From IMG/VR virus record IMGVR_UViG_3300025112_000228, positions 1-21,404 of that record: 21,404 bases of DNA; one strand, written 5' to 3'. Origin of the DNA: a virus. Positions 1-19,930 of the stretch are shown here, in pieces. The position numbers and the translations under genes were made by a program. Numbering within the stretch: the first letter of the stretch is position 1; each line of letters opens with the position of its first letter. The notes under the pieces were generated by a model that saw only the letters and a list, made by a program, of their open reading frames with translations, was not told the DNA's origin and made no database searches.

Positions 1-335
1 GTTTTGGAACTCAAGGGCGCTCATGCGCTTTCCGCATTCTGTGGGGCGCTGAAGAGATTGGCATTCGCGATGAAGAAAGTTGGTTTGATGCAATTAAAAG
101 TTCGCACTGCCTAACAAGTGCTGGTGCCTGGTACACACTCACGATGCCCGATGGCTATACCAAAAAGTTTCAACCTTCAAAGTGGTCTGAACTAATTATG
201 TCTGATAATGAATTTAAAGAGAACGTCATCCGTCTAATGGATGATGAAATTATTCAGAAGTTTCATCGCCGCGAAGGAAATGCGCAGGCTTTTTATTCAG
301 AACCCGAAGATTTAACAGTTCCGCTTAAGGATTAA
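1..335 (+). CDS. RecA/UvsX-family recombinase, C-terminal fragment (truncated by window edge)
   Basis: The reading frame is open from base 3 to the TAA at 333-335, so only the last 110 codons are present and the true start lies left of the window. The segment SAGAWYTLTMPDG resembles the 'GAWY' region after the ATPase core of bacterial RecA and phage UvsX, where a short strand and helix lead into the C-terminal domain. Such proteins coat single-stranded DNA and carry out strand exchange in phage recombination and recombination-dependent replication. The ATPase motifs are outside the window, so the call rests on the C-terminus and on the replication genes that follow. An ATG at 144 is probably internal. 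Family call is moderately supported; the choice between RecA and UvsX is open. Confidence 0.6.
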   Translation, partial: FGTQGRSCAFRILWGAEEIGIRDEESWFDAIKSSHCLTSAGAWYTLTMPDGYTKKFQPSKWSELIMSDNEFKENVIRLMDDEIIQKFHRREGNAQAFYSEPEDLTVPLKD

Positions 336-351
336 AATAGGAGAAATTAAA

Positions 352-615
352 ATGACACATTTATTTACGCTAATGTTCTTAGCAGGGATGCAAACTGCAG
401 ATGCACGCCACAAGCACCGGAACGCGAAGCCGGCGCCACCGGCGAAGCACCACCATGTGCGCCCCAAACCGCGCCACATCAGTCATAAGACCTATCATCA
501 TGATGGTCATAAATACTATGACGATCATGATGGCATTGTGTGGGTTTGGAGAAGGGGTCACTGGACAGCTGGATTCTACATGCGTGGTCACTGGGAAGTC
601 CATGTGCCTCTCTAA
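352..615 (+). CDS. Small secreted His-rich protein with WXXGXW motif
   Basis: This 87-residue protein starts at ATG 352, preceded by AGGAGA at about 341. Residues 1-18 form a short hydrophobic leader ending in A-D-A, a plausible signal-peptidase I site. The following part is very rich in His, Arg, Lys and Pro. The C-terminus has WRRGHW and then a second RGHW, matching the WXXGXW repeat family of small exported proteins. It probably acts in the periplasm or envelope, but the family has no well-defined activity. The His-rich middle could bind metal; that is inference. It lies 17 bases after the recombinase and just before the promoter at 632. Two other frames across this stretch are also open, which is a by-product of its skewed composition. 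Confidence 0.65.
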   Translation: MTHLFTLMFLAGMQTADARHKHRNAKPAPPAKHHHVRPKPRHISHKTYHHDGHKYYDDHDGIVWVWRRGHWTAGFYMRGHWEVHVPL

Positions 616-631
616 AAAATAAACTTAACGC

Positions 632-660
632 TTGACTTAATCCTCTCACTTGGTTATAAT
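632..660 (+). promoter_or_regulatory. Sigma70-like promoter P1
   Basis: TTGACT (632-637) and TATAAT (655-660) are separated by 17 bases, giving 11 of 12 consensus matches. It fills the gap between the secreted protein and the deaminase. A start point near 667 would leave a leader of about 15 bases containing the GGGAGG ribosome site (671-676). Confidence 0.85.
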
Positions 661-681
661 ATAACTAACTGGGAGGTTTTT

Positions 682-1128
682 GTGACTGTGCCGTGCACAG
701 AATATAATACTATAGATGCTGAAGAGTATCACGCATACACCGGCAAGATAAAACGTTATATGGGGTTGGCAAAAAAGGTCGCGCTCCAATCTGAGTTTCC
801 CGATTATCGCCACGGCGCAGTGCTCGTAAAAGGAAACTCTGTGAGAAACACCACATACAATAAAGATAACTTTTGTGCCTTTGGCAAGCGCTTTCAAAAA
901 AATCACACAGGAAGAACAACGGTTCATGCAGAACTGGGTGTAATTCTGGGGCTCGACAGGTCGATTACGTCTGGCGCCACTGTATACGTGGCACGAATAG
1001 GGAAGCTGGATGAAGAATATAGATTGAGTAAGCCATGTTCCATGTGTCATGCTGCGTTAAAATATGTAGGTGTGAAACGTGTGGTATACACTATTGATGA
1101 CGATGAAGTCGGGAGCTATAGACTGTGA
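682..1128 (+). CDS. Cytidine/dCMP deaminase-like zinc enzyme
   Basis: The gene begins at GTG 682, five bases after GGGAGG (671-676), and encodes 148 residues. Zinc-deaminase signatures are clear: H82-A-E84 (zinc ligand and catalytic Glu) and P-C119-S-M-C122 (two further zinc ligands), followed by the usual 'VGVKRVVYT' strand. An RHGAVLVK segment near residue 43 matches the first strand region of the fold. Members hydrolytically deaminate cytosine nucleosides or nucleotides; in large phages the common member is dCMP deaminase, which makes dUMP for dTMP synthesis. Substrate cannot be settled from sequence, and the protein is somewhat shorter than T4 dCMP deaminase. It is first in the operon from P1 and its TGA overlaps the start of the next small ORF (GTGA). 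Confidence 0.8.
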   Translation: MTVPCTEYNTIDAEEYHAYTGKIKRYMGLAKKVALQSEFPDYRHGAVLVKGNSVRNTTYNKDNFCAFGKRFQKNHTGRTTVHAELGVILGLDRSITSGATVYVARIGKLDEEYRLSKPCSMCHAALKYVGVKRVVYTIDDDEVGSYRL

Positions 1129-1298
1129 TTGTCTTGGTAATGTGGTTGTGGGGATGCGCGCCGGGATTAGAACGAAGAAACGACAGGTGCCCAGGCGCTT
1201 TTGATTGCTGGTGTCCTGGCGATACTGCTCACGAAATTTTGCCCCCACTTGATGAGAATGGTCACATCATTTGTGGCGATACAGGAGAAGAAGAATGA
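1125..1298 (+). CDS. Short Cys-rich lipoprotein-like ORF, translationally coupled on both sides
   Basis: A 57-codon frame runs from GTG 1125, which overlaps the deaminase stop as GTGA, to TGA 1296-1298, which overlaps the exonuclease ATG as ATGA. A GGGAG sequence at 1111-1115 sits nine bases before the GTG. The product starts with a hydrophobic stretch (MIVLVMWLWGC) ending in a lipobox-like L-W-G-C with the Cys at position 11, then has four more Cys (C22, C28, C30, C50) and an acidic tail. The leader has no positive charge, unusual for a lipoprotein signal, so membrane anchoring is uncertain. The frame fills the whole interval between two confident genes with no slack, the best argument that it is real. 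No family recognised. Confidence 0.6.
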   Translation: MIVLVMWLWGCAPGLERRNDRCPGAFDCWCPGDTAHEILPPLDENGHIICGDTGEEE

Positions 1299-2278
1299 AA
1301 AGAGTGTTGATTATCGACGCGCTGAATGCGTATCTAAGAGCATACATTGTAGACCCGTCGTTGTCTTTAAATGGACAGCCGATTGGCGGCATCAAAGGCT
1401 TCATGAAGATTTTACAAAAGCTTGTGCGAGATATCAGTCCGGATGAAATAGCTGTTATTTGGGACGGACCTAATGGGTCTGCACGCCGGAAGATTATGGA
1501 CAAAAATTATAAGGACGGAAGAAAGCCCTTGCGCTTAAACCGCGCCTTCCATAACCTGTCCGAGATGGAAGTGCAAGAAAACAAAACGTGGCAGCAAGTG
1601 CGGGTGATGGAGTATCTCAATGAGATGCCCATCGTTCAAACAATTATCCCAGAGATTGAAGCAGATGATGTGATTGCTTATCTGACACAGATGGAATATT
1701 ATAAGGGGTGGCAAAAGATCATTGTCTCAAATGATAAGGATTTCATGCAGTTATGTGACGAGGAGACTGTTCTCTATCGCCCCACCAAGAAAGAGATTTT
1801 AAATAAGCAACGGATTGTTGAACAAATGGGAGTACACCCCACTAACATGGCCCTTGCGCGCGCCATCATCGGAGACCCCTCGGACAATCTACCTGGCATC
1901 CGCGGCGCCGGTTTTGCGACGGTGGCAAAAAGACTTAATTTTTTATCGGCTGAGAAAACTTATACAATTCAAGAGGTTATAGATTTCTGTGAAAAAACAA
2001 ACAGCAAACTTAAATTCTTTTCTAATATTGTAGAGGGAAAGGGCGTCGTAGAGCATAATTATATGATGATGCAGCTGTATGTTCCTCAGATGTCTTTCCA
2101 ATCAAAAATGGTTGTGAAAGAGGCGATTGAAAACTTTGAATGCACATTTGGAAAGACAGAAATTATACGTATGATGAGAGAAGATGGCTTTGGAGAGTTG
2201 AATTGGGAAGATCTGAGAGCCAGCTTAAATCGAATCAACTATAATTGCAATATGAAAAAGAAAACCAAAGACGTTTGA
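1295..2278 (+). CDS. 5'-3' exonuclease / flap endonuclease (T4 RNase H-like, PIN/FEN fold)
   Basis: The start is taken as ATG 1295, after AGGAG at 1283, because the product then begins MKRVLIIDALN, the normal first strand of this fold; an upstream ATG at 1271 adds eight unlikely Arg-rich residues. The 327-residue product shows the acidic metal-binding residues in order: D8, D57, E122 with D124/D125 (EADD), D147 and D149 (SNDKDF), D194 and D197 (GDPSDN). A helix-hairpin-helix-like LPGIRGAG follows at about 199-206. Enzymes of this type remove RNA primers and 5' flaps during lagging-strand synthesis. It is coupled to the preceding small ORF by ATGA, and the next promoter begins inside its stop codon. 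Confidence 0.88.
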   Translation: MKRVLIIDALNAYLRAYIVDPSLSLNGQPIGGIKGFMKILQKLVRDISPDEIAVIWDGPNGSARRKIMDKNYKDGRKPLRLNRAFHNLSEMEVQENKTWQQVRVMEYLNEMPIVQTIIPEIEADDVIAYLTQMEYYKGWQKIIVSNDKDFMQLCDEETVLYRPTKKEILNKQRIVEQMGVHPTNMALARAIIGDPSDNLPGIRGAGFATVAKRLNFLSAEKTYTIQEVIDFCEKTNSKLKFFSNIVEGKGVVEHNYMMMQLYVPQMSFQSKMVVKEAIENFECTFGKTEIIRMMREDGFGELNWEDLRASLNRINYNCNMKKKTKDV

Positions 2279-2303
2279 CGCTCTTTGAAAAAAGTGATAT
2301 AAT
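2275..2303 (+). promoter_or_regulatory. Sigma70-like promoter P2
   Basis: TTGACG (2275-2280) and TATAAT (2298-2303) are 17 bases apart (11 of 12 consensus matches). The exonuclease stop codon TGA (2276-2278) is part of the -35 box. The promoter would drive the helicase/nrdJ operon, starting near 2310 just before the ribosome site AAAGGG (2313-2317). Confidence 0.85.
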
Positions 2304-2323
2304 AGATTATAAAAGGGATATCA

Positions 2324-3724
2324 ATGTTGGCAACTGCTGAAAACATTAATTTTGGACGATATGGAAAAGCCTTCCAGGAAGGATTAGTACAATTAATTTT
2401 TGAGGATCGTCCGTTTGCAGATCAAATTACTGAAGTTTTAGATATTAATTTTTTAGAACTGCAGTATCTAAGGGTGTTTGCACAGAAGATTATAGCTTAT
2501 CGAGCCAAGTATAATAAACATCCTTCTGTGGAGATAGTCATGACAATGCTGCGCACAGATCTCGAGAATGAAGACAAAGTAATTCAGAAACAAGTGCGAG
2601 AATACTTCACAAGAATTCATCGGCGCGAACTTAACGACATTGAATATATCAAAGAGCAATCAATTGATTTTTGTCGCAAGCAAAACCTTAAAGAAGCGAT
2701 GCTTAAATCAGTAAACCTTTTACAAAACTGTTCGTTTGATGAAATTTCACAGACCATCAATGAAGCTTTAAAGCTGGGGTCGGAAAACAATTTTGGCTAT
2801 GATTACTTGGCCGACTTTGAACAGCGGTTTGTGCCTAAACATCGCAGCCCCGTTACGACTGGGTGGAGCGAGATGGATAACATTTTTGGGGGAGGTTTGG
2901 GCAAGAGCGAGTTGGGTGTAGTAATTGCGCCAACTGGCGCCGGCAAGTCTATGGTGCTCGTGCACCTAGGGGTTAATGCTCTTAAAGAAGGGAAAACAGT
3001 TATACATTATACTTTGGAGCTTCAAGATACTGTCATTGGAAATCGTTATGATAGTTGCTTGACAGGCTATCCTTTGTCTGATATTATTAATTTTAAAGAA
3101 GAAGTTTATGAGGAAGTTAAAAATCTAGATGGCTCGCTGATCATTAAGGAGTATCCTACTAAGTCTGCTTCGACTAATACTATTCGGGCTCACTTGTCAC
3201 AGCTTGTCAAGCGCGGGATTAAACCAGGATTGATTATTGTTGATTATGGAGACTTGCTTAGACCAGTTGTTGTCCGAAAGGAAAAGAGAACCGAGTTAGA
3301 ATCTATTTATGAGGAACTCAGATGTCTTTCTACCGAGTTTAGCTGTCCCATTTGGACAGCATCTCAAACGAATCGTTCGGGACTCAATGCTGAAGTGATC
3401 ACGATGGAACAGATCTCTGAAGCGTTCAACAAGTGTTTTGTGGCTGATTTTATCTTCTCTGTGTCTCGAACAATTGAGGACAAACAAAAGAGTTTAGGAA
3501 AAATTTTTATTGCCAAAAATCGTAATGGTCCAGATGGAATAGTTTTTCCTATATTTATGGACACAGCTAGCGTGAAAATCAAAATATTGCCTAAGAATAA
3601 TCCGCAGCTACCTGGGGGAAAGGTGCCACTTAATCCAGTCACCTTAGATGCTCCAATGCAAAAAGAATTATTGCAACAGAAATATGAAAAGCTTAGGAAG
3701 AAGAAGAGGGAGATAAACATATGA
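2324..3724 (+). CDS. DnaB-family replicative helicase (T4 gp41-like)
   Basis: This 466-residue protein has an N-terminal helical region (about 1-165) and a RecA-type ATPase core. Walker A is APTGAGKS (202-209), preceded by the typical 'TGWSEMDNIFGGGLGKSELGVV' class of segment; the Walker B strand is LIIVDYGDLL (303-312); and the ASQTNR motif (346-351) matches the DnaB H3 region. These hexameric helicases unwind the replication fork 5' to 3' and work with a primase. The length equals T4 gp41 (about 475) and E. coli DnaB (471). It starts at ATG 2324 in the leader of promoter P2 and its stop overlaps nrdJ as ATGA, so the two are probably translated together. The C-terminus is highly basic (KKKRE). 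Confidence 0.88.
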   Translation: MLATAENINFGRYGKAFQEGLVQLIFEDRPFADQITEVLDINFLELQYLRVFAQKIIAYRAKYNKHPSVEIVMTMLRTDLENEDKVIQKQVREYFTRIHRRELNDIEYIKEQSIDFCRKQNLKEAMLKSVNLLQNCSFDEISQTINEALKLGSENNFGYDYLADFEQRFVPKHRSPVTTGWSEMDNIFGGGLGKSELGVVIAPTGAGKSMVLVHLGVNALKEGKTVIHYTLELQDTVIGNRYDSCLTGYPLSDIINFKEEVYEEVKNLDGSLIIKEYPTKSASTNTIRAHLSQLVKRGIKPGLIIVDYGDLLRPVVVRKEKRTELESIYEELRCLSTEFSCPIWTASQTNRSGLNAEVITMEQISEAFNKCFVADFIFSVSRTIEDKQKSLGKIFIAKNRNGPDGIVFPIFMDTASVKIKILPKNNPQLPGGKVPLNPVTLDAPMQKELLQQKYEKLRKKKREINI

Positions 3725-5694
3725 GAACTTTAAGCACCATTCGCAGATTTAGACTATCGGACACATTTATTGAACCATATAAAATTTCGGAGGTACCGTG
3801 GGGACCTCTGGGATATGTCACTTTTAAACGTACATATGCTCGCCGCTTAAGCGAGTTTGAAGCAGGAGCGTCGGGTACAGAGGAATGGTGGCAAACCTGT
3901 CGCCGGGTAATCGAAGGCATGTTTAATATGCAGAAAGAACATGTAGTTCTACTAGGGCTTGAGTGGAATGATGCCAAGGCACAGAGCACCGCTAAGGAAG
4001 CGTATGATCGTTTGTTTAATTTAAAGTGGACGCCCCCCGGACGCGGATTGTGGATGATGGGCACCAAATTTGTGGAAGAGCGCACCGCTGCCGGCTTATT
4101 TAATTGTGCCTTCAGATCCACTAGAGATCTGCCCACCAAGGGCGGCTATTTGTTTGCATGGATGATGGATGCGTTGATGGTTGGTATCGGTGTGGGGTTT
4201 GATACTGAAGGAGCCAATTCCATTACCATTGAAGAGCCTCAATATACCAACGACGTCCATGTGATTGACGACTCCAGGGAGGGATGGGTAAATTCGGTCC
4301 ATATGTTGTTGGACGGCTTTTTTTTCGGCCAAAAAATTCCCAGATTTGATTATTCTGCTATTCGCCCATTGGGCGCCCCTATTCTTGGGTTCGGGGGCAC
4401 ATCGAGTGGTCCGGAGCCCCTGAAAGAGTTACATGCATCTTTAACAGACTTGTATACTCCTAAAATCGGAGAGCCAATTACGTCCGTTGACATTGTAGAT
4501 ACAGAGAATCTTATCGGACGCTGCGTGGTAGCTGGCAACGTTAGACGTTCAGCTGCACTAGCAATGGGGAAGCACAATGATATGTATTATCTCCAGATGA
4601 AGAACGATCAAGAGAAACTTTATCATCATCGCTGGGGTTCTAACAATTCTTTTAACGCTGTGGTGGGAATGGACTATACCTGGCACGCCAACCAAAGCCA
4701 GCAGAATGGCGAGCCAGGATATATTTGGTTAGAGAATGCGCGCAAGCGTGGACGATTTAGGGACGGCGAGCGTCTGGACGATATTAATGTGGCGGGATTT
4801 AATCCCTGCGTAGAACAACAACTTGAAGATGCAGAATTGTGTTGCCTCGTAGAGACGTTTCCTGCAAAACACGACGATTTTGAGGATTACTTGCGGACTC
4901 TTAAGATTGCATATTTATATGGAAAAACTATTACTTTATCCAACACTCATTGGCCAGAAACCAATGCTAAGATGCTTAAGAATCGCCGTATTGGACTCTC
5001 TCAATCTGGCGTAATTCAAGCTTTTAATAAGCATGGTCGTCGCGAGATATATAAATGGTGTAATGAAGCCTATGAATATATCAAAGAACTTGACGAAGAA
5101 TATTCTAATTGGTTGTGTATCCCCAAGTCAGTGCGCACCACCTCTATTAAACCTTCGGGCACTGTTTCGTTGTTAAATGGATCCACTCCAGGTATCCATT
5201 TTCCAGAGGATGAATATTATATTCGTCGCATTCGGTTTTCAAACTATTCAGAAATGCTGGAGTCGTTGCGCGAGTCGGGCTACCACATAGAAGACGACGA
5301 ATATTCTCCTAACACATCTGTAGTGGAATTTCCGGTTCATGAACCTTACTTTAAGAAAGGAAAACGCAACGTCAGCATGTGGGAACAGCTGGAGATAGCG
5401 GCTCAATATCAGTATTACTGGGCAGACAATTCAGTTTCGGTGACCGTTACTTTTAAGCCTGACGAAGCGACCCAAATTAAGGACGCTTTAGAAATGTATG
5501 AAACACGCCTTAAAGCTGTTTCGTTTTTGAAACACGAGGAGACTGGCTACAAGCAAGCTCCTTATGAATCAATTACTAAAGAAAAATATGAAAAACTAAT
5601 TAAAAACATTCGTCCGTTGCAACGGTTTGATATAGAAGAAGAGGGTACCGGAACAAAATTTTGTGACGGTGAGGCGTGCGAAGTAACATTTTAA
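3721..5694 (+). CDS. nrdJ: Adenosylcobalamin-dependent (class II) ribonucleoside-triphosphate reductase, monomeric type
   Basis: At 657 residues this is close to the monomeric Lactobacillus-type RTPR (about 739). It reduces ribonucleotides to deoxyribonucleotides using a thiyl radical generated with coenzyme B12, independent of oxygen. Visible hallmarks, by homology to RTPR: redox Cys C129 (LFNCAF) paired with C374, the active-site triplet N361, C363 and E365 (NPCVE) with the thiyl Cys C363, the SIKPSGTVS loop (475-483), and a C-terminal shuttle pair C648/C653 with the same CxxxxC spacing as RTPR. All catalytic residues are therefore present. The shuttle Cys pair is normally re-reduced by thioredoxin, and a thioredoxin-like gene lies at 14943. 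It follows the helicase with ATGA overlap. Confidence 0.92.
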   Translation: MRTLSTIRRFRLSDTFIEPYKISEVPWGPLGYVTFKRTYARRLSEFEAGASGTEEWWQTCRRVIEGMFNMQKEHVVLLGLEWNDAKAQSTAKEAYDRLFNLKWTPPGRGLWMMGTKFVEERTAAGLFNCAFRSTRDLPTKGGYLFAWMMDALMVGIGVGFDTEGANSITIEEPQYTNDVHVIDDSREGWVNSVHMLLDGFFFGQKIPRFDYSAIRPLGAPILGFGGTSSGPEPLKELHASLTDLYTPKIGEPITSVDIVDTENLIGRCVVAGNVRRSAALAMGKHNDMYYLQMKNDQEKLYHHRWGSNNSFNAVVGMDYTWHANQSQQNGEPGYIWLENARKRGRFRDGERLDDINVAGFNPCVEQQLEDAELCCLVETFPAKHDDFEDYLRTLKIAYLYGKTITLSNTHWPETNAKMLKNRRIGLSQSGVIQAFNKHGRREIYKWCNEAYEYIKELDEEYSNWLCIPKSVRTTSIKPSGTVSLLNGSTPGIHFPEDEYYIRRIRFSNYSEMLESLRESGYHIEDDEYSPNTSVVEFPVHEPYFKKGKRNVSMWEQLEIAAQYQYYWADNSVSVTVTFKPDEATQIKDALEMYETRLKAVSFLKHEETGYKQAPYESITKEKYEKLIKNIRPLQRFDIEEEGTGTKFCDGEACEVTF

Positions 5695-5708
5695 GATGAG
5701 AGGTAAAA

Positions 5709-5939
5709 GTGAATTTTAATTATTTGTTGAATGAAAAGAAAATAAAGATATTATGTAAGAGAGAAAATTTAAATGAATGTCATTGGAGTCCAAGCGGGAG
5801 AATTAGAGCTACAGCCGGCAAGAACGTTCATGTGTCTATGTATTGTAAAAGATGCGGGTGTCAAGAAGAAATCTTCTTAAGCGAAGATCAATATAACACC
5901 CACAAAAAGCTTATTACTTGCGAGTTGGGCGATGTTTAA
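5709..5939 (+). CDS. Small Cys-containing protein of unknown function
   Basis: GTG 5709 lies five bases after GAGAGG (5698-5703), which decides the start. The 76-residue product has an N-terminal charged part and Cys/His residues spaced like a small zinc site: C16 and C24-H25, then a central CKRCGC and a late Cys near the C-terminus. No catalytic motif is recognised. The last eight bases overlap the co-chaperonin start. It could be a zinc-ribbon-like accessory protein; the assignment of metal binding is inference from Cys spacing only. Confidence 0.6.
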   Translation: MNFNYLLNEKKIKILCKRENLNECHWSPSGRIRATAGKNVHVSMYCKRCGCQEEIFLSEDQYNTHKKLITCELGDV

Positions 5940-6207
5940 GCCGGTTAACCGTTATATTCATATTGAACCATCCACTCCTCAACCCGTGGAGCGCTCTTCT
6001 GGTATTGTATTGCCCGAAGACTATGCTCCCGCCAAAGAAGTGTACGCAGTCGTCAAAGTGAAGGCGTGGGCTGACGATGTAAGGTTTGGTGCGCACCTTT
6101 GCGAAGGAGGCGATATTCTCATTAATCAGAGTATGATAGAGGAAATTATCATTAACAAAGAGAAGTTTACTGTAGTCCTAGATAATTATGTTATAGGAAT
6201 CTTGTAA
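5932..6207 (+). CDS. GroES-like co-chaperonin
   Basis: The 91-residue product matches the Cpn10 fold in outline: an N-terminal 'RYIHIEP' strand, the segment SSGIVLPEDY that corresponds to GroES GGIVL and leads into the place of the mobile loop, a GDILIN strand corresponding to GroES 'GDIVIF', and a C-terminal 'NYVIGIL' corresponding to the GroES end. GroES-type proteins cap GroEL during protein folding; phage versions such as T4 gp31 substitute for host GroES to fold the capsid protein. It is slightly shorter than GroES (97). Start ATG 5932 overlaps the preceding gene. Family call is good; the role in capsid folding is inference. Confidence 0.72.
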   Translation: MFKPVNRYIHIEPSTPQPVERSSGIVLPEDYAPAKEVYAVVKVKAWADDVRFGAHLCEGGDILINQSMIEEIIINKEKFTVVLDNYVIGIL

Positions 6208-6212
6208 TACGA

Positions 6213-7118
6213 ATGGACAAAGACTTTTATAATCAGTCATCTGCGACCCAACTAGGGTGGGAACCTTCGTGGTTTGGGGAAAAATACTTTGATGAAAAAT
6301 TGGTGAGAGCCATTAAGAAGTGGCAAAGAGTTCGCCAATTGGTAGCGGATGGGCTGTGTGGACCCATGACCTTCCGCCGTATTTGGACAGAGAGACAATC
6401 CAATATTGATGAACAGGTGTCTTGCACCCCTCAGTATTCGAATCATTTGGTATATAATGGCAACTTTATTCCCATTGATTGGGAAAAGGTCGTGTTGTGG
6501 TCCGAGAAAGACGGATTGACCACCCAAGCGGGACATTATTATGATTACTCGGGGCGCCCACAAAGAAATATTCGACTTTTCGTCAACCACTGGGACGTAT
6601 GTTTGAGTTCTCAAACTTGCCAAGACGTCCTCAACAAGAGGGGGATTTCAGTTCACTTCTTAATCGACAACGATGGAACCATTTATCAGACTCTGGACAT
6701 GCAGCATGCGGCGTGGCATGCCGGAACTAGTCGAGTAAATCGGGCTTCGGTGGGAGTGGAGATTACTAATGCTTATTACCCCAAATATCAAGAGTGGTAT
6801 AAAAGGAATGGCCACGGGGAGCGACCCTTGAAGACAGATGCGTGGGTTCATGGCAACAAACTTGAGCCCTTCCTAGATTTTTACCCTATCCAGGTTGAGG
6901 CTGCCCAAGCCTTGTGGAGAGCTATTGAACCTGTGACCAAAGTAGAACTTAAAACTCCCCTTAATCAGTTTGGCAAGACAGAAACTCGCTATATCCAAGA
7001 GGTGGTATATGGAAAGTTCGCCGGCATCGTTAGCCACTATCATTGCAGCAAAAGAAAGATTGATTGCGCAGGCTTAGACATTCAAAACCTTTTAGAAGAA
7101 ATGGAGAATGATGATTAG
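6213..7118 (+). CDS. Endolysin: peptidoglycan-binding domain plus N-acetylmuramoyl-L-alanine amidase (amidase_2)
   Basis: Residues about 14-57 look like a PG_binding_1 module (repeating hydrophobics, then VADGLCGPMTFRRI). From about 115 the amidase_2 fold follows: NHWD with H126, a strand ISVHFLIDNDGTIYQ, AAWHAG with H169, and near the end H277 and C285 in a HYHCSK...C arrangement. H126, H277 and C285 are the likely zinc ligands; the eight-residue H-C spacing resembles T7 lysozyme. The enzyme would cut the bond between MurNAc and L-Ala. There is no signal peptide, so export would need a holin or similar. A ribosome site is weak (AGGA about 15 bases upstream). The length (301) is longer than minimal amidases because of a long insert around 185-225. 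Confidence 0.88.
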   Translation: MDKDFYNQSSATQLGWEPSWFGEKYFDEKLVRAIKKWQRVRQLVADGLCGPMTFRRIWTERQSNIDEQVSCTPQYSNHLVYNGNFIPIDWEKVVLWSEKDGLTTQAGHYYDYSGRPQRNIRLFVNHWDVCLSSQTCQDVLNKRGISVHFLIDNDGTIYQTLDMQHAAWHAGTSRVNRASVGVEITNAYYPKYQEWYKRNGHGERPLKTDAWVHGNKLEPFLDFYPIQVEAAQALWRAIEPVTKVELKTPLNQFGKTETRYIQEVVYGKFAGIVSHYHCSKRKIDCAGLDIQNLLEEMENDD

Positions 7119-8292: not shown

Positions 8293-9176
8293 GTGGATCT
8301 GTACATGTCGCCGGCATCATTCCTCTCGCTAATTTGGAAACAGATTACGATATGGAGGTACCGGTGTGCATGTTACCACTCAACGCTGGCTTTACAGCAA
8401 TTCAAAAGTCTGTTTTTGAATGTGCCATGGCAGGCTGTGATACTATTTGGATCGTGGCCAATGCCGACTTGGCTCCTATCGTGCGCAAGACAGTGGGAGA
8501 ATGGGTACACGATCCTGTTTATTATAATCGCACAATGACAAAATTCTATACAGAAGTAAGGAAAGAAATACCTATTTATTATGTACCAATTGATGTGCGC
8601 GACCGGGACCGCCGCGATTCTTACGGATGGTCCGTTTTACATGGAGTGAATTCGGCATGGTGGGTTGGAAACAAGATATCTAAATGGCTCGTTCCGGAAA
8701 AATATTTTATTTCCTTCCCCCTCGCAGCTTATGATATTTACTCAATACGCGATCACCGCAAAAAAATTGCCAGTAAAAATTTCAATTTTTTCGTTACTCA
8801 CAATAATCAAACAGTAAAGGACAATTTACCTTTATCCTTTACCATGACAGGAGAAGATTTTATACAATGCAGAAGAAACGTAAACAAACTTACAACGCGG
8901 GAGTATTTACCACCTGCCGAAGGAGAAAAGTTTCCATCCCAACGTTTGCCACTCGAGCAAAGATGGTCAGCTAAACATTTTGAGTTTCAAACAGTCTTTG
9001 AAAAAGTAGACCAGACAAATCATTCACAAATGGAAGTTGAGTGGTTCTACAATCTCTCAAGTTGGGAGAATTACAGAGCTTTTTTAGGATCCGATAACAT
9101 TATCAAGAAGCCATATAAAGGCTTGACAGGTCCCCACCAGCATGCTAAAATATGTTTTACAGAGGATGAAGAATGA
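8289..9176 (+). CDS. Nucleotidyltransferase-like (GT-A fold) protein, atypical
   Basis: The gene starts at GTG 8289 in a GTGA overlap with the previous stop, behind GAGGA (8280s). The 295-residue product opens with VHVAGIIPLAN, then VPVCMLPLNAGFTAIQKSVFECAMAGCDTIWIVAN (residues about 25-58), which follows the layout of sugar-phosphate nucleotidyltransferases: a first strand, 'P.cmLPL', a helix, then 'aGc..I.IV.n'. The Gly-rich GxGTRL loop and the following Lys that define active enzymes are absent, so catalysis in the usual way is doubtful. The middle and C-terminus are unique, with many aromatic residues. It may be a phage-specific family with a repurposed fold. It is paired with the gene at 7420 and overlaps the polymerase start. 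Confidence 0.5.
   Translation: MSGSVHVAGIIPLANLETDYDMEVPVCMLPLNAGFTAIQKSVFECAMAGCDTIWIVANADLAPIVRKTVGEWVHDPVYYNRTMTKFYTEVRKEIPIYYVPIDVRDRDRRDSYGWSVLHGVNSAWWVGNKISKWLVPEKYFISFPLAAYDIYSIRDHRKKIASKNFNFFVTHNNQTVKDNLPLSFTMTGEDFIQCRRNVNKLTTREYLPPAEGEKFPSQRLPLEQRWSAKHFEFQTVFEKVDQTNHSQMEVEWFYNLSSWENYRAFLGSDNIIKKPYKGLTGPHQHAKICFTEDEE
9123..9151 (+). promoter_or_regulatory. Promoter P4 inside the preceding gene, just upstream of the polymerase
   Basis: TTGACA (9123-9128), 17-base spacer ending in TGC, and TAAAAT (9146-9151) give 11 of 12 consensus matches and an extended -10. The -10 ends 21 bases before the polymerase ATG (9173), so a transcript starting near 9158 would carry the ribosome site AGAGGA (9161-9166). 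It overlaps the last codons of the nucleotidyltransferase-like gene. Confidence 0.65.
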
Positions 9177-12100
9177 ACCACAAACAATCTACAATTAAAT
9201 TTGTTGGCTTGCACGCGCATAGTGTAGCCGGCTCTCTTTTTGATGCCATTGGGTATCCGAATGTGCATATGGACTTTGCATATGAGAATGGCAGCGATGG
9301 ATTAGCACTAACCGATCATGGCAATATGAATGGCTTGGCATACCAAGTTCTCCATGCCCGGAAGATGCAGGAAGAAGGAAAAGACTTTAAGCCTATTTTC
9401 GGCTGCGAAGCTTACTTTTTGCCTTCCTTATCAGAGTGGAGGGAAGAGTATACCAAGGCTATGGAAGACAAAAAGAAGGCTCGCTCTATTAAGAAAGACG
9501 AACAGTCAGGCGCCACAGTCGAAGATGAAGGGAACAGTAAAAAGGCTCAAGATATTTTGCGCCGTCGTAGTCATCTTATACTTTTGGCACAAAACCAAAC
9601 AGGACTTAATAACATTTTCAAGCTTATTTCAGAGTCCTACCAACCGGAGAATTATTATCGCTATCCACGTATGGATTATGAGCTTCTTAAGAAATATAAC
9701 GAAGGAATTATTGCCGCTAGCGCATGTCTTGGTGGCGTGTACGCTGGCGATTATTGGCAATGTGTTGAAAGGGATACCGAAGGTAACCGTATAGGTTTTG
9801 ATGACAAAAGATGCCTTAGCTTGATGGAGGAGACAACTCGCCGGATGCTTGATATTTTTGGAGATCGCTGGTATGCAGAACTTCAGTGGAACAACATCCC
9901 AGAACAACATGAATTAAACCAATACATTATTAAAGTGGCCAAACAGTTTGGCGTTGGACTGATTTCTACAGCCGATAGCCATTACCCCGACCCAGACGCC
10001 TGGAAGGATAGAGAGCTTTACAAGCGTCTGGGTTGGCTTGGCAAAGGAAAGCCTTCCTGGGCAGAAGATAGTGACTTGCCGGCAGGAGTCGAGGAGATTG
10101 GATACGAATTGTATCCGAAGAATGGCGATCAAATGTGGGAATCTTATAAGGAGTATACTAAAGACTATGATTACGATGATGATCTTGTGCTTAATTCTAT
10201 CGAGGAAACCTACACAATCGCCCACGAGCGAATCGATACCTTCTTCCCCGACAATACGGTCCGCCTTCCGGGGTTTGTGGTGCCCGCCGGGTTCACAGAT
10301 ACGCAAGCTTTAACTAATTTTTCATTAGAGGGTCTGAGAGAACGAAGCTTGCACACAAATCGAGCGTATATTGATCGCCTGAATCATGAGCTAAATATTA
10401 TTGATGACCGAGGCTTCTCTAAGTATTTCTTGACCATGAAGGCGATTGCTGACGTGGCCACGAGCATGATGTTGGCGGGTCCTGGTCGCGGGTCAGCCGC
10501 TGGCTCGCTGGTAGCATATGCCCTTGGAATCACCCAGGTTGATCCTATCAGACATGGACTCCTCTTTTCTCGCTTCTTGCGCTCGGACGCAACCGACTAT
10601 CCAGACATCGATTATGATGTCTCTGATAGTATGCTTTTGAAGGAGAAGCTTGTAGAGATGTGGGGAGAAGACACAGTGGCGCCGATTTCTAACTGGAACA
10701 CGCTGCAGCTTCGGTCGCTCATTAAGGACATTTCAAAACTGTATGATATTCCCTTCATCGAAGCGAACACTGTCACCGGTGTGATGATACGCGAGGCTAC
10801 TCCCATTGCTAAGAAGAAGCATGGGATCAAGGCTGGAGTCTATGCGCCTACGTGGGAAGAGGTGATGGAATTCTCACCTTCCCTCCAGACTTATTTGGCA
10901 AAGCACCCCGCTGTTAAGGCACACGTCAAGGCGCTCGTAGGACAAGTGCGCTCGTGTTCTCGCCACGCTGGTGGAGTGGTGATTGCCGAGAACTTAGATA
11001 GAAGCATGCCTTTGATTAATTCGGGTGGCGTGCGGCAAACGCCATGGTCCGAAGGGCAGAACGTTCGGCACCTTGAGCCAATGGGGTTTATTAAGTTTGA
11101 TTTGCTTGGGCTCTCGACCTTGAAGATGATGGAAGGATGCATTGAGCATATCTTGCGCCGACACTATAACGTAGAGAATCCAACGTTTGAGCAGATAAAA
11201 GATTACTATAACAAAAACCTTCATCCAGATATCTTGGACATGAACAATCAAAAGGTTTACAAAAATGTATTTCACAAAGGTCGATGGGCTGGCATCTTTC
11301 AATTTACAGAAACGGGCGCCCAAAGCTTTTGCACCAGGGGAAAGCCGGAAAACATTATTGATGTCTCGGCTGTCACGTCTATCTTTAGGCCCGGTCCTCT
11401 TTCCGCAGGGGTGGACGCAGACTACGTAGAAGCTAAGAGTCACCCTCAATATATTTCATACCTCTCTGACGAGGCTCGCGAAATTACCGAGGAGACATAC
11501 GGCTTCCTTATTTTTCAGGAACAAATTGCACTCCTGGCTCACAAGCTTGGAGGCTTAACGCTCGATGAGGGGAACATGCTGCGAAAGGTGCTCACTAAGA
11601 AGGGCACAGGGAAGGGCAGCGTCAAACAAAAGTTGCATAGAAAATTCATTAATGGCTGTCTTGACAGCGGTATAGCCAAGGACGCAGCACAAGAGTTGTG
11701 GGACAAGTTTGAATATTTCTCTGGCTATGGCTTCAACAAGTCACATGCTGTTAGCTATAGTATCATTTCGTTCCAGTGCGCGTGGCTGTGGAACTATTAC
11801 CCAGCCGAGTGGATGGCAGCGTTTCTGGATAAGGAGCCTGAGAGCCGCAAGGAAAAGGCTATCAATATCGCCAAGCAGTTTGGGTTTAAGATTGCTCCGT
11901 TGGATGTTAATAAGTCGGGTACGGTATGGGAGATTAGCGAGGATGGCAAGACCCTCATTCAGCCGCTCACTTCCATTAAAGGATTGGGGATGGCTGCCAT
12001 TGAGCAGATTCTTAACAACCGTCCGTTCACCAATGCCGAAGATCTTTTGTTTCGCGAAGAAGTTGTATACGGCAAGCTGAACAAGAAATCATTGGATGCT

Positions 12101-12622
12101 TTGTGTCGGGGTGGCGCTCTTGACCACATTGTTGATGATCGTTTTACGGGGCGCAAACATTTTTGGTCTGCATGTATTGTAGATCGGCCGAAGAGTTTGA
12201 AGAAGCTGGCTGAAAACATTGAAACGTTTAAACCTGAAGGGGATTTTTCCGAGGAAGAGATCATTCAATTTAAAACTGATTTGACTGGGGTGTTCCCCAT
12301 CAACTTGGTTATCAAGACAGAAACTATTGAACACTTGCAGTCGCGAGGAGTTCCTCCCATTTCTGAATTTGATCCTGACCTTTTGGTGTGTTGGTTTATA
12401 CCTCGAAAGATTATCGAGAGAAAGACAAAGAATGGCAAGCTGTATTGGATTGTGGAAGTGATCGACAGCAACAATCAGCAGACAAAGATTAGATGTTGGG
12501 GTGTAAAACCCGAGAAGGATCGTATTTACTTAAACAGACCTTACATGGCGCGCCTAAAGTACGATGAACAGTGGGGCTTTTCCACCTACGCCATTGGTAA
12601 GACGTTTAAAATATTAGGATAG
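9173..12622 (+). CDS. dnaE: DNA polymerase III alpha subunit-type replicative polymerase (DnaE-like) with intact PHP domain
   Basis: The 1149-residue length equals bacterial DnaE. The N-terminal PHP domain (1-280) carries the metal-ligand set: H14, H16 (HAHS), D48 and H49 (TDHG), E79 (GCEAYF), H134, C185, D268 and H270 (ADSHY). Retention of all of them suggests an active Mn/Zn-dependent 3'-5' proofreading nuclease. The palm has GPGRGSAAGS (436-445) and catalytic D478 and D480 (PDIDYD), with the third Asp D643 (KFDLLGL). The fingers/tau-like region includes YGFNKSHAVSYS and FQEQIALLA. A helix-hairpin-helix (IKGLG) and an OB-like C-terminus complete the C-family layout. A charged insert at about 88-130 is not in the core family. 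Start ATG 9173 overlaps the prior stop (ATGA). No separate clamp or epsilon is visible here. Confidence 0.93.
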   Translation: MNHKQSTIKFVGLHAHSVAGSLFDAIGYPNVHMDFAYENGSDGLALTDHGNMNGLAYQVLHARKMQEEGKDFKPIFGCEAYFLPSLSEWREEYTKAMEDKKKARSIKKDEQSGATVEDEGNSKKAQDILRRRSHLILLAQNQTGLNNIFKLISESYQPENYYRYPRMDYELLKKYNEGIIAASACLGGVYAGDYWQCVERDTEGNRIGFDDKRCLSLMEETTRRMLDIFGDRWYAELQWNNIPEQHELNQYIIKVAKQFGVGLISTADSHYPDPDAWKDRELYKRLGWLGKGKPSWAEDSDLPAGVEEIGYELYPKNGDQMWESYKEYTKDYDYDDDLVLNSIEETYTIAHERIDTFFPDNTVRLPGFVVPAGFTDTQALTNFSLEGLRERSLHTNRAYIDRLNHELNIIDDRGFSKYFLTMKAIADVATSMMLAGPGRGSAAGSLVAYALGITQVDPIRHGLLFSRFLRSDATDYPDIDYDVSDSMLLKEKLVEMWGEDTVAPISNWNTLQLRSLIKDISKLYDIPFIEANTVTGVMIREATPIAKKKHGIKAGVYAPTWEEVMEFSPSLQTYLAKHPAVKAHVKALVGQVRSCSRHAGGVVIAENLDRSMPLINSGGVRQTPWSEGQNVRHLEPMGFIKFDLLGLSTLKMMEGCIEHILRRHYNVENPTFEQIKDYYNKNLHPDILDMNNQKVYKNVFHKGRWAGIFQFTETGAQSFCTRGKPENIIDVSAVTSIFRPGPLSAGVDADYVEAKSHPQYISYLSDEAREITEETYGFLIFQEQIALLAHKLGGLTLDEGNMLRKVLTKKGTGKGSVKQKLHRKFINGCLDSGIAKDAAQELWDKFEYFSGYGFNKSHAVSYSIISFQCAWLWNYYPAEWMAAFLDKEPESRKEKAINIAKQFGFKIAPLDVNKSGTVWEISEDGKTLIQPLTSIKGLGMAAIEQILNNRPFTNAEDLLFREEVVYGKLNKKSLDALCRGGALDHIVDDRFTGRKHFWSACIVDRPKSLKKLAENIETFKPEGDFSEEEIIQFKTDLTGVFPINLVIKTETIEHLQSRGVPPISEFDPDLLVCWFIPRKIIERKTKNGKLYWIVEVIDSNNQQTKIRCWGVKPEKDRIYLNRPYMARLKYDEQWGFSTYAIGKTFKILG

Positions 12623-12625
12623 AAC

Positions 12626-13231
12626 ATGAAAGTAATGACATATTTTAGCCCACTCCTTAAAGAGAAGGAGTTGGTAGAAGGGTTGCCTGTTATTATACGG
12701 GTCCGAAAATTTGACGAAGCGGCAGCTAAAACCTTTTCAGAAGAAATGGCCAAAGCACAGAACACCGGTCAGCCAATTATTCCAGTAGTGATTGATAGTT
12801 ACGGGGGACAAGTGTATAGTCTGATGTCGATGATTTCAGATATTAAACACTCCACGCTACCCGTGGCCACGATTGTTCAAGGAAAGGCAATGTCATGTGG
12901 CGCCATTCTTTTTACGTTTGGCGCGGAAGGTCATCGATACATGGATCCCGATGCCACGTTTATGATTCACGACGTGAGCAGCTTTACAGGAGGCAAGATT
13001 GAAGAGCTTAAAGCCGACGTCGGGGAAGCTGAGAGGTTAAACCAGAAAGTTTTTAAAATGATGGCAAAGAACTGCGGACACCACGAAGATTACTTTTTAG
13101 ATATCGTACACGATAAAGGACATGCTGATTGGTACCTTGAATTAGATGAAGCTAAAAAACACAAGATAGTAAACCACGGGCACGTCCCCGAATTAAAGAT
13201 CAGAGCTAACGTTGAATTTGATTTTGGTTAA
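12626..13231 (+). CDS. ClpP-like serine protease (S14 family), canonical triad
   Basis: The 201-residue product has the ClpP hallmarks: a Gly-rich oxyanion region DSYGG (57-61), the nucleophile S90 in GKAMSCGA, H115 in MIHDVS, and D168 in HADWYL, aligned with the catalytic Asp region ERDRF of E. coli ClpP. The Ser-His-Asp triad therefore appears intact. Such proteins form barrel proteases that degrade unfolded proteins fed by a Clp ATPase; phage versions may also process capsid proteins. It begins four bases after the polymerase stop behind AGGATAG. No Clp ATPase is encoded here, so it would depend on a host ATPase or act alone. Compare the second paralogue at 19298. Confidence 0.82.
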   Translation: MKVMTYFSPLLKEKELVEGLPVIIRVRKFDEAAAKTFSEEMAKAQNTGQPIIPVVIDSYGGQVYSLMSMISDIKHSTLPVATIVQGKAMSCGAILFTFGAEGHRYMDPDATFMIHDVSSFTGGKIEELKADVGEAERLNQKVFKMMAKNCGHHEDYFLDIVHDKGHADWYLELDEAKKHKIVNHGHVPELKIRANVEFDFG

Positions 13232-15306: not shown

Positions 15307-15681
15307 ATGTCAAAACATTTATATGAAGCTACTATCTTGCAGCTTAAAGGAAGAGCACTTGAGGCGTATGCTGCGCTAGAGTTATTATTCAGTGATCCCG
15401 CCACTATTCCTGACCACACGGATTGGGGAGAGGAAATTAAAAAGCATGCTCGGATACTAGCAGAAAACGAAAATACTATGGTAACACTCCAGCAGTACTT
15501 TGGTCCGCGTTTTGCCGCCCCACAACCAGTGGCGCCCACCCCTGTGTCTCCACCTGCTGAGGAACCTCCCGTGGCTCATGAGGATTTGATGGAAAGGTCT
15601 CCCACTTATCGGAGGAGCATGGATTCGGCAAAGCTTAAAGAATCTATTAAGAAAAAACAACAGCAACAGGAAGAAGAATAG
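15307..15681 (+). CDS. Hypothetical phage protein with Pro-rich linker
   Basis: The start is ATG 15307, after AAGGAG (15295-15300), rather than an earlier in-frame ATG at 15289 inside the preceding gene. The 124-residue product has a helical N-terminal domain (SKHLYEATILQLKG... LQQYFG), a Pro/Ala-rich linker (about 72-95) and a charged tail ending in Gln and Glu runs. The first part resembles small phage helical proteins with an 'I.DHtdw.eEi...' pattern, but no function is known. The TAG stop overlaps the next GTG start (TAGTG). Confidence 0.6.
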   Translation: MSKHLYEATILQLKGRALEAYAALELLFSDPATIPDHTDWGEEIKKHARILAENENTMVTLQQYFGPRFAAPQPVAPTPVSPPAEEPPVAHEDLMERSPTYRRSMDSAKLKESIKKKQQQQEEE

Positions 15682-16697
15682 TGGAGCGAGACTTATCGTA
15701 TGACGATGTGCTACTCGTTCCTCAATATTCAGACATAGCATCGCGCCAAGAAATTGATATTTCATCTGATTTGGGAAAGGGTACGTGGCTGGAGGTGCCT
15801 ATTATTGCTTCTCCTATGGATACGATTTCTGAATCTTCTATGGCTGCAGCCATGGCTTCTCATGGGGGAACTGCTATTATTCATCGATATCTTTCGATTG
15901 AGGATCAGTGTCACCACGTTGAATCTCTACCGCAGGAGGCTATTGTAGGAGCAGCGGTGGGGGCGATGGGAGACTTTGAAGAACGAGCATGCGCGTTATC
16001 TGATGCTGGCGTAAATATTATTTGCATTGATATTGCCCACGGGCATCATGTTTTAATGAAGACTGCGCTACACACACTTCGGAATGTTTTTGGAAACACC
16101 ATGCATATTATGGCAGGCAATGTGGCCACCATAGAAGGAATTAATGATTTAGCTGACTGGGGAGCAGACTCCGTGCGATGCAATATTGGAGGAGGATCAA
16201 TTTGTTCTACCAGAATTCAAACTGGACACGGGATCCCTGGCTTTCAAACGATTGTGAATTGTGCCACGACCGATAGAGATATTAAGATTATAGCCGATGG
16301 CGGAATTCGAAATTCAGGCGACATGGTTAAGGCACTCGCTGCTGGGGCAGACGCTGTAATGTGCGGTTCTCTCCTCTCTGGCACCGATGAGACGCCAGGA
16401 AAAATACTACAGGACATAGACGGCTACCGGTGGAAATCTTTTCGGGGGATGGCATGCAAAGAAGCACAGGTAGACTGGCATGGGCGCTATAGCTCTTTCG
16501 AAGGGGTAGCAGCCCGCGTGCCTTACCGCGGTCCCGTCGGACACATCCTGGAAGACTTAGAAAGGGGAATTCGATCTGGCTTTTCATATAGCGGAGCGCA
16601 TGATCTAACAGAGCTACACGCTCGAGCTAAGTTCACACAACAAACAGCGTCTGGGCTGTCCGAGAGTCACGCTCACATTATGAGTAGGAAGTGGTGA
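15681..16697 (+). CDS. guaB: IMP dehydrogenase without CBS domains (IMPDH/GMP reductase family)
   Basis: The 338-residue protein is a TIM barrel of the IMPDH/GMPR family. It begins with the diagnostic [13 protein letters not shown] (5-17) and has the catalytic loop [17 protein letters not shown] with C175, the nucleotide-phosphate strand IIADGGIR (203-210) and the flap segment ARVPYRG (278-284). In IMPDH this flap carries the Arg and Tyr that activate water; in GMP reductase the flap lacks that Arg, so IMPDH is favoured: oxidation of IMP to XMP with NAD+. The regulatory CBS pair (about 120 residues in cellular enzymes) is missing. The loop has GGGS instead of the usual GPGS. Expected result is unregulated guanine nucleotide supply. 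Start GTG 15681 overlaps the prior TAG. Confidence 0.8.
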
Positions 16698-18891: not shown

Positions 18892-19305
18892 ATGGAATAC
18901 ACATACTTATTATACTTGTTGGTTTTTGCATTTGGATACCTTACATGCAGAACATTCTATTTTGTAGGAAGCGCTCGAAAAAGCATGCAATTAATGCGCA
19001 TCACTCAACTAATCGCCCTATATATTACTGTGAAGGGTCTGGAAAATTTTCAATACTCACGACAATACCGTTTAAACATCATGAACGAAAGCAAAGCCAG
19101 TGAACAAAACGTAAAAGCGTTTAAGCTGCAGTTTGAAGACGACGTATCTTTATATAAAACAAGAACGATCAAGAAGATGATCGCTGCGCATGGCGGATTT
19201 TTTAATCATTTAGTACAATTTGAGGACTGGAACGGCGCCATGAAATTTTTAGAGAAGAACAGACAAGAGGTTATAAACCTTATTATGGAGGAGTGGAATG
19301 ATTAA
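18892..19305 (+). CDS. Single-span membrane protein of unknown function
   Basis: The start is taken as ATG 18892, four bases after AGAGG (18883-18887); an in-frame TTG at 18877 lies within the hairpin and is less likely. The 137-residue product starts with a hydrophobic span (about 4-22, YTYLLYLLVFAFGYLTC), then a long charged helix including RKSMQLMRITQLIALYITVKGLE and a coiled-coil-like C-terminus. Topology is probably N-anchor with a cytoplasmic domain. No family recognised. It is first after promoter P6 and overlaps the second ClpP-like gene by eight bases, suggesting co-translation. Confidence 0.65.
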   Translation: MEYTYLLYLLVFAFGYLTCRTFYFVGSARKSMQLMRITQLIALYITVKGLENFQYSRQYRLNIMNESKASEQNVKAFKLQFEDDVSLYKTRTIKKMIAAHGGFFNHLVQFEDWNGAMKFLEKNRQEVINLIMEEWND

Positions 19306-19930
19306 GCGACTTAAAGAGAAAGTAAATAAAATGCTCGAAGGCGACGACGAAAAGAAAATTCTCCTTATTGAACACCCTTCTAATGGTGACAACGAGCCGG
19401 ACATGCGGATAATAGGACTATTTGCAGATGTAACAGAAGAGAAGGTAGCGGAAGTGATCCTTGGTCTTTTGTATATGAATGAGCAGAATAAGCTGCTTCC
19501 TGACGATGAACAAGAGAGAGAAATTCAGTTTTATATTTCTACCTACGGGGGAAACGCAGATGACATGTTTGCGCTTTATGATATGATGAAACAAATTCAG
19601 CAAACCACCGACATTAGTACCATTGGCGTGGGCAAGGTGATGTCGGCCGGCGTTCTGCTGTTGGCAGGAGGCACCCCCGGCAAAAGAAAGGTAGGAAGAA
19701 ATTGTAGAATAATGCTTCACTCTGTAGTGGCTGGCAATCATGGCTCGCTACATAATCTCATAAATGAGATGGAAGCTATTCAAGACTTACAACAAATGTA
19801 TATAAATCGTTTAGTAGAAGAAACAAAAATGACCAAATCTCAACTCAAAAAAATGTTGGAACGTAAAGTTAATATCTATTTATCACCAGAGCAAGCAGTT
19901 GAGTATGGGATTGCAGATGAAATTATATAA
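19298..19930 (+). CDS. Second ClpP-like protein with Asn in place of the catalytic Asp
   Basis: The 210-residue product carries the ClpP fold: oxyanion Gly pair STYGG (81-85), nucleophile S116 in GKVMSAGV, H141 in IMLHSVV, and the C-terminal YLSPEQAVEYGIADEI, nearly identical in pattern to ClpP 'FLSAPEAVEYGLVDSI'. By this alignment, the position of the third triad residue is N192, not Asp. ClpP with a non-Asp third residue can have reduced activity or depend on partners, as in ClpP/ClpR mixed rings. It is strongly preceded by GGAGGAG and coupled to the membrane protein. Alternative role: prohead maturation protease, because it sits beside structural-looking genes. It differs clearly from the paralogue at 12626. 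Confidence 0.8.
   Translation: MIKRLKEKVNKMLEGDDEKKILLIEHPSNGDNEPDMRIIGLFADVTEEKVAEVILGLLYMNEQNKLLPDDEQEREIQFYISTYGGNADDMFALYDMMKQIQQTTDISTIGVGKVMSAGVLLLAGGTPGKRKVGRNCRIMLHSVVAGNHGSLHNLINEMEAIQDLQQMYINRLVEETKMTKSQLKKMLERKVNIYLSPEQAVEYGIADEII

Follow-up and report, generated by a model that had tools for sequence, protein, structure and literature searches.

Phage accessory genes, known as 'morons' or as the contents of hyperplastic regions, are typically small genes that sister phages exchange between conserved ones. Small lipoproteins are also encoded by phages; Llp of phage T5, an early protein that contains a disulfide between Cys11 and Cys58, blocks the receptor FhuA, and its gene adjoins that of the receptor-binding protein (PMC9586334). 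In bacteria, the usual lipoprotein signal averages 16-26 residues and has a positively charged start (PMC8689077). Overlapping gene pairs of the ATGA type have commonly been tied to translational coupling (PMC6728339).

The window described here is the whole analysed stretch of 21,404 nucleotides from IMG/VR virus record IMGVR_UViG_3300025112_000228, and it contains a small gene for a Cys-rich protein that can be compared with each of these systems. Like the superinfection-exclusion lipoproteins T5 Llp and Cor of T1 and related coliphages, the product is a tiny phage protein, putatively lipid-anchored, that contains one or more Cys pairs; unlike llp, which lies beside the receptor-binding-protein gene, the Cys-rich gene sits between a deaminase and an exonuclease gene. 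The signal is also shorter than in Llp and Cor, and uncharged. No sequence link to Llp or Cor has been found in database searches of cultured phages (using a relative's protein), PHROGs or PDB profiles (TRIM proteins only), a set that may or may not include Llp. As in classical bacterial lipoproteins, the substrates of signal peptidase II, a hydrophobic start and a small residue precede an invariant Cys, and the mature part is polar; unlike in these, the signal has ten residues without K or R, and a strict lipobox is found in one of seven members. As is typical of phage accessory genes, small genes are swapped between conserved genes in sister phages, but in this junction alternative genes occupy a fixed start-stop overlap, and many of them keep the 4-base overlap with the deaminase gene. 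The protein also resembles the EGF-like mini-domain PF14670 (FXa_inhibition) in being Cys-rich and of an extracellular type; homology is not claimed, and the matches in two of the seven members (best E 0.3; Pfam, E up to 10) are not significant.

A 57-codon gene in an uncultured phage lineage

The sequence-only reading of this DNA had proposed a 57-codon gene bounded by GTGA and ATGA overlaps, preceded by a GGGAG ribosome site and encoding LWGC followed by four more Cys, and had called it hidden. The gene has been confirmed by its homologues, purifying selection and invariant Cys, both overlaps are present at its ends (Table 1), and LWGC occupies residues 8-11 with four further Cys in the translation; a 60-codon cutoff does miss the gene, and it is to such a cutoff only that it is hidden. 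The frame runs from GTG to TGA, and an in-frame TAG lies upstream of the GTG at 1119-1121, therefore no earlier start is available. GGGAG is present as well, but as an element of the junction that is not specific to the Cys-rich gene, because it lies inside the last deaminase codons and also precedes the exonuclease in relatives with an empty junction, as GGGAG in L026 and GGAAG in L011 ahead of the ATGA. In the window, L076, L077 and L136, where the Cys-rich gene and the exonuclease gene are direct neighbours, the GGAG before the exonuclease start sits in the final codons of the Cys-rich gene; in L079 and L082 a different gene follows and the tail of the Cys-rich gene differs.

Table 1. Positions of the features in the window.
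Feature	Position	Strand	Evidence
Sigma-70-like promoter TTGACT-17-TATAAT ahead of deaminase	632..660	+	11/12 consensus match; conserved in place in 63/67 junctions
dCMP deaminase, upstream neighbour	682..1128	+	PF00383 E 4.4e-10, phrog_174 E 1.3e-22
GGGAG ribosome-site-like element, within final deaminase codons	1111..1115	+	same element before exonuclease ATGA in L011, L026
GTGA start-stop overlap: Cys-rich gene GTG 1125-1127 / deaminase TGA 1126-1128	1125..1128	+	read from sequence
57-codon gene, Cys-rich lipoprotein-like protein	1125..1298	+	homologues in 11 other contigs, dN/dS ~0.09 vs L076, invariant Cys 11/22/28/30/50
Putative 10-residue export signal and Cys11, MIVLVMWLWG-C	1125..1157	+	most hydrophobic start vs 26 other window frames; Cys11 7/7; strict lipobox absent
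ATGA stop-start overlap: Cys-rich gene TGA 1296-1298 / exonuclease ATG 1295-1297	1295..1298	+	read from sequence
5'-3' exonuclease, downstream neighbour	1295..2278	+	PF02739 E 5.1e-29, phrog_107 E 1.7e-25
Second sigma-70-like promoter ahead of helicase gene, would mark end of three-gene unit	2275..2303	+	11/12, consensus match only

Relatives with an open frame have been found in 11 other IMG/VR contigs by wider profile searches, the single protein and the first profile each having yielded eight. Together with the window, these contigs give seven distinct proteins, and the other six are 53-79% identical to that of the window. Compared with L076, the gene has a dN of 0.12 and a dS of 1.36, and the resulting ratio of about 0.09 shows that it is under purifying selection; the flanking genes give about 0.07 (deaminase) and about 0.03 (exonuclease) in the same comparison. 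For L079 and L082, where synonymous distances are saturated, no ratio is given. The differences from L076 fall 5/6/26 on codon positions 1/2/3, a third-position share of 26/37 (binomial p 5e-6), and the remaining two forward frames hold stops in the window, L076, L077, L079 and L082. Frameshifts or stops in relatives had been named beforehand as evidence that would speak against the gene; no broken copy is present among the relatives found, broken copies being harder to detect, and no remnant has been revealed in the 63 of 70 distinct junctions that lack the gene when these were searched with a profile, unfiltered and at E up to 0.1. The frame is a genuine phage gene.

The gene belongs to an uncultured phage lineage. 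Positions 1-4000 of the window have no near-identical match among cultured phages, the relative's protein from L079 has no match there at E up to 1, and the best cultured-phage matches of the exonuclease, helicase and reductase are all below 60% identity and come from mixed hosts. The prohead protease PF03420, present in two of four related records, hints at T4-like phages. Elsewhere in the window, a bacterial-type DNA polymerase III alpha subunit (9173-12622, PF07733 E 3.5e-50), two different genes of the Clp protease family (12626-13231 and 19298-19930, PF00574 E 1.4e-20 and 3.1e-33) and a gene of the IMP dehydrogenase / GMP reductase family (15681-16697, PF00478 E 2.4e-102) are encoded. The Cys-rich members tried have no match in Pfam, PHROGs or NCBIfam at E up to 1, and PADLOC gives no match for the protein. 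Two scans of bacterial and archaeal genomes returned 93 and 138 pattern matches with no relative among them. Two plasmid records (E 0.2) were rejected as relatives of the window protein, and TRIM proteins from the PDB sequence profile search (best E 0.25) were rejected as chance matches. The literature listings retrieved on exclusion lipoproteins, short lipoprotein signals, small proteins, overlaps, accessory genes and the six-letter core contain no description of the family.

The deaminase-exonuclease slot and its transcription

The junction has been compared across 123 loci with both flanking genes, which reduce to 70 distinct junction sequences; the loci were gathered via the exonuclease, the deaminase (best 80 of 368) and the Cys-rich gene, and the counts are not population frequencies. 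The junction is empty in 29 of the 70, with the flanking genes at most 20 bases apart and, in 20 of these 29, overlapping by 4 bases. Seven carry the Cys-rich gene, 31 are wider and hold other open frames, and in three the gap is short (57-132 bases). NTGA is the deaminase ending in 69/70, and the exonuclease starts with ATGA in 54/70 (scripted start). Close relatives thus either have or lack the Cys-rich gene while the genes on both sides are conserved, as expected of an accessory gene in a variable slot.

Other occupants include a DUF3310 protein in L082 (PF11753 E 1.6e-17) and, in L079, a short protein starting MKYKVGQLVK that has no Pfam match. UV-damage repair enzymes of two kinds are also among them, namely a pyrimidine dimer glycosylase (L036, PF03013 E 1.1e-8) and UvdE (L171, PF03851 E 6.8e-59). 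A GIY-YIG homing-endonuclease-like gene (PF01541 E 1.3e-9) lies directly after the deaminase at 3341-3838 of L083 and is absent from the near twin L082; it may help move genes into the junction.

Among the 11 contigs, eight have the Cys-rich gene between deaminase and exonuclease, four of these directly or in part alongside other small genes. Conservation of both overlaps, a check put forward with the initial proposal, holds in L076 and L077, which share the arrangement, and partly in L136, which retains the overlap with the exonuclease but has a further small gene in front; it does not hold in L079 and L082, which have other genes on both sides. In L080 the exonuclease follows the Cys-rich gene and the contig ends before the deaminase. 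The gene is kept at more than one genomic place, since the last two contigs (L175 and L176, identical over the fetched stretch) carry it beside a tRNA-Asn gene, from which its start is separated by 19 bases. Of these, the longer contig spans 254,743 bases, and the best match to the exonuclease there is much weaker (E 3.8e-67) than in the junction phages (1e-180 or less). At 3789-4177 of L176, tRNA-Lys, tRNA-Asn and the Cys-rich gene stand one after another, with a DUF7695 protein next, an order that suggests tRNA-linked insertion. Because only some relatives have it in the junction and others carry it at a second place in the genome, the Cys-rich gene is an accessory gene, one of several alternative small genes in the deaminase-exonuclease slot.

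A promoter match of at least 10/12 within 140 bases around the place ahead of the deaminase has been found in 63 of the 67 junctions with enough upstream sequence, as against 6.8% of random 140-base stretches from the same loci, although the junction sequences are related and hence not independent. The other four scored 0 (three) or 6 (one). Single matches, including that ahead of the helicase gene, weigh little, because the scan of positions 1-6000 of the window gave 22 promoter-like sites where shuffled sequence gave 13.1 +/- 4.5, and the helicase gene itself contains a match that is just as good. The conserved promoter-like sequence supports a three-gene unit that is probably read by a host-type polymerase and hence early, and it is on this one feature that the early operon of the sequence-only reading stands.

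The N-terminus and the alternative readings

In the seven proteins, 23 columns are invariant, and these include Trp29, DTAH at 33-36 (with His36), PPLD at 40-43 and IIC at 48-50. All five Cys, whose conservation had been proposed as a further check, are kept in 7/7; L076 and L077 have an extra Cys at position 9. Beyond residue 10 the protein is polar and acidic, with a net charge of -5 to -11 across members. AlphaFold gave no confident structure for five of the sequences (mean pLDDT 52.9, pTM 0.27).

Residues 1-10 are hydrophobic in all seven members (mean KD 1.66 to 2.77), though the letters differ, and those of the window protein are more hydrophobic than each start of 26 hand-picked other frames of the window. 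Position 10 holds G or A, and position 8 L or I, in 7/7, and every member thus has the invariant Cys ending a hydrophobic start, with a small residue before it, of a classical lipoprotein. The strict lipobox [LVI][ASTVI][GAS]C is found in L176 (LTGC) and not in the other six, LWGC of the window included, while a looser pattern, which we take to be PROSITE's, fits five of the six members tested and not the window protein. The signal lacks the usual length and positive start: K and R are missing from the first seven residues of the six members checked and likewise from L176 as read; if L176 started instead at the in-frame ATG that lies four codons upstream, its signal would have 14 residues and include one K.

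Other exported-looking proteins of these phages offer a comparison. In L008/L071, the protein at the same place starts MSLYLVLLGC, a short uncharged lipobox start, and has no Pfam family match. At 352-615 the window encodes a small protein that looks exported, is rich in His and carries WXXGXW-like repeats (PF12779 E 0.0046, just below the cut-off); among its relatives upstream of the deaminase, some have a plain signal and others one with a lipobox. Among the 25 matches listed for this family, 17 look non-lipid (that of the window being MTHLFTLMFLAGMQTADA) and eight have a lipobox. The first seven residues are free of K and R in 16 of the 17 listed non-lipid-looking proteins (read by eye), and the same phages thus encode neighbours that look exported although their starts lack K and R. 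In all eight listed lipobox proteins the signal is longer and K or R occurs close to the start, therefore a short lipoprotein signal free of charge is not usual in these phages. Neighbours whose WXXGXW-type protein lacks a lipobox Cys are too few to tie them to the presence of the Cys-rich gene.

On balance, it is mildly favoured that the Cys-rich protein is exported and lipid-anchored. The hydrophobic start, Cys11, G/A at 10, L/I at 8, the polar and acidic part after residue 10 and the canonical LTGC of L176 argue for it, as do the exported-looking neighbours without K or R and the MSLYLVLLGC protein, and the four invariant Cys after Cys11, the number that two disulfides would need, are counted for export as well. 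The ten-residue signal without K or R, the strict lipobox missing from six of seven members and the charged lipobox proteins of the upstream family weaken it. The label lipoprotein-like, as originally proposed, is plausible with respect to the invariant Cys11 after a hydrophobic start; with a canonical lipobox in L176 only and a short, uncharged signal, it is not assigned to the classical lipoproteins.

A small metal-binding protein of the cytoplasm is an unlikely alternative that still deserves consideration. Here Cys 22, 28, 30 and 50 with His36, and perhaps Cys11, would bind zinc, the hydrophobic N-terminus would be buried in the fold, and the target during takeover would be a host enzyme or the replication machinery. 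The invariance of these five Cys and His36 in 7/7 would suit a metal site, the gene would be co-transcribed with genes of nucleotide and DNA metabolism, and the signal breaks the usual length and charge rules. However, no frame start among the 26 compared is as hydrophobic as the first ten residues, which keep only their hydrophobic character and not their letters, Cys11 always stands directly after them with G or A before it, and no metal-binding family is matched in Pfam, PHROGs or NCBIfam. That the protein is exported or membrane-attached without lipid, for example as a very short membrane peptide in lysis or its timing, appears quite improbable: the hydrophobic start with its acidic tail and an amidase-type lysin gene at 6213-7118 would agree with this, but the gene belongs to a nucleotide-metabolism unit about 5 kb from the amidase, and the Cys pattern is better kept than the hydrophobic letters. 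A normal helix of ten residues is too short to cross a membrane. That the frame is open by chance, and no gene, is barely credible and is rejected, since its small size and the missing family, PDB and bacterial-genome matches would fit, but purifying selection against L076 contradicts it and seven distinct homologous proteins, a second genomic location and overlaps of just 4 bases with each neighbour all stand against it.

A possible envelope protein and its meaning

In the favoured reading, the gene would be transcribed from the host-type promoter before the deaminase and the GTGA and ATGA overlaps would couple its translation. Early transcription and coupling are inferred, as are export, lipidation and disulfides, from the established gene with its conservation, slot, overlaps, Cys pattern and promoter-like sequence. 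A minimal signal, consisting of the N-terminal amine, about seven hydrophobic residues and a turn ending in G/A, would take the protein to the membrane, Cys11 would then be lipidated, and the acidic remainder of 46 residues, held by disulfides via Cys 22, 28, 30 and 50, would sit in the envelope. There it might act on a host envelope protein, for example in a superinfection block like that of T5 Llp. Target and role are guesses by analogy, and superinfection exclusion, suggested at the outset, is a doubtful assignment. An accessory role does suit the gene, because it is present in some junctions and replaced by repair or other genes elsewhere.

Taken as a whole, the gene is an ordinary accessory gene of an unnamed family, and the short signal is its odd part. 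Only tentatively can it be proposed that these proteins form an undescribed family of phage envelope lipoproteins, in which an uncharged ten-residue signal would be accepted by the export and lipidation machinery of the host and the gene would be one of several interchangeable ones in a translationally coupled junction, with sister phages differing in envelope, repair or takeover factors. The gene adds a conserved small protein family that is absent from the searched family libraries and cultured-phage records, and it reveals a start-stop overlap in a nucleotide-metabolism operon that serves as an exchange site for small accessory genes. If the lipidation is true, the signal is well under the usual length and charge rules for lipoprotein prediction, and similar proteins in other phages may be missed.
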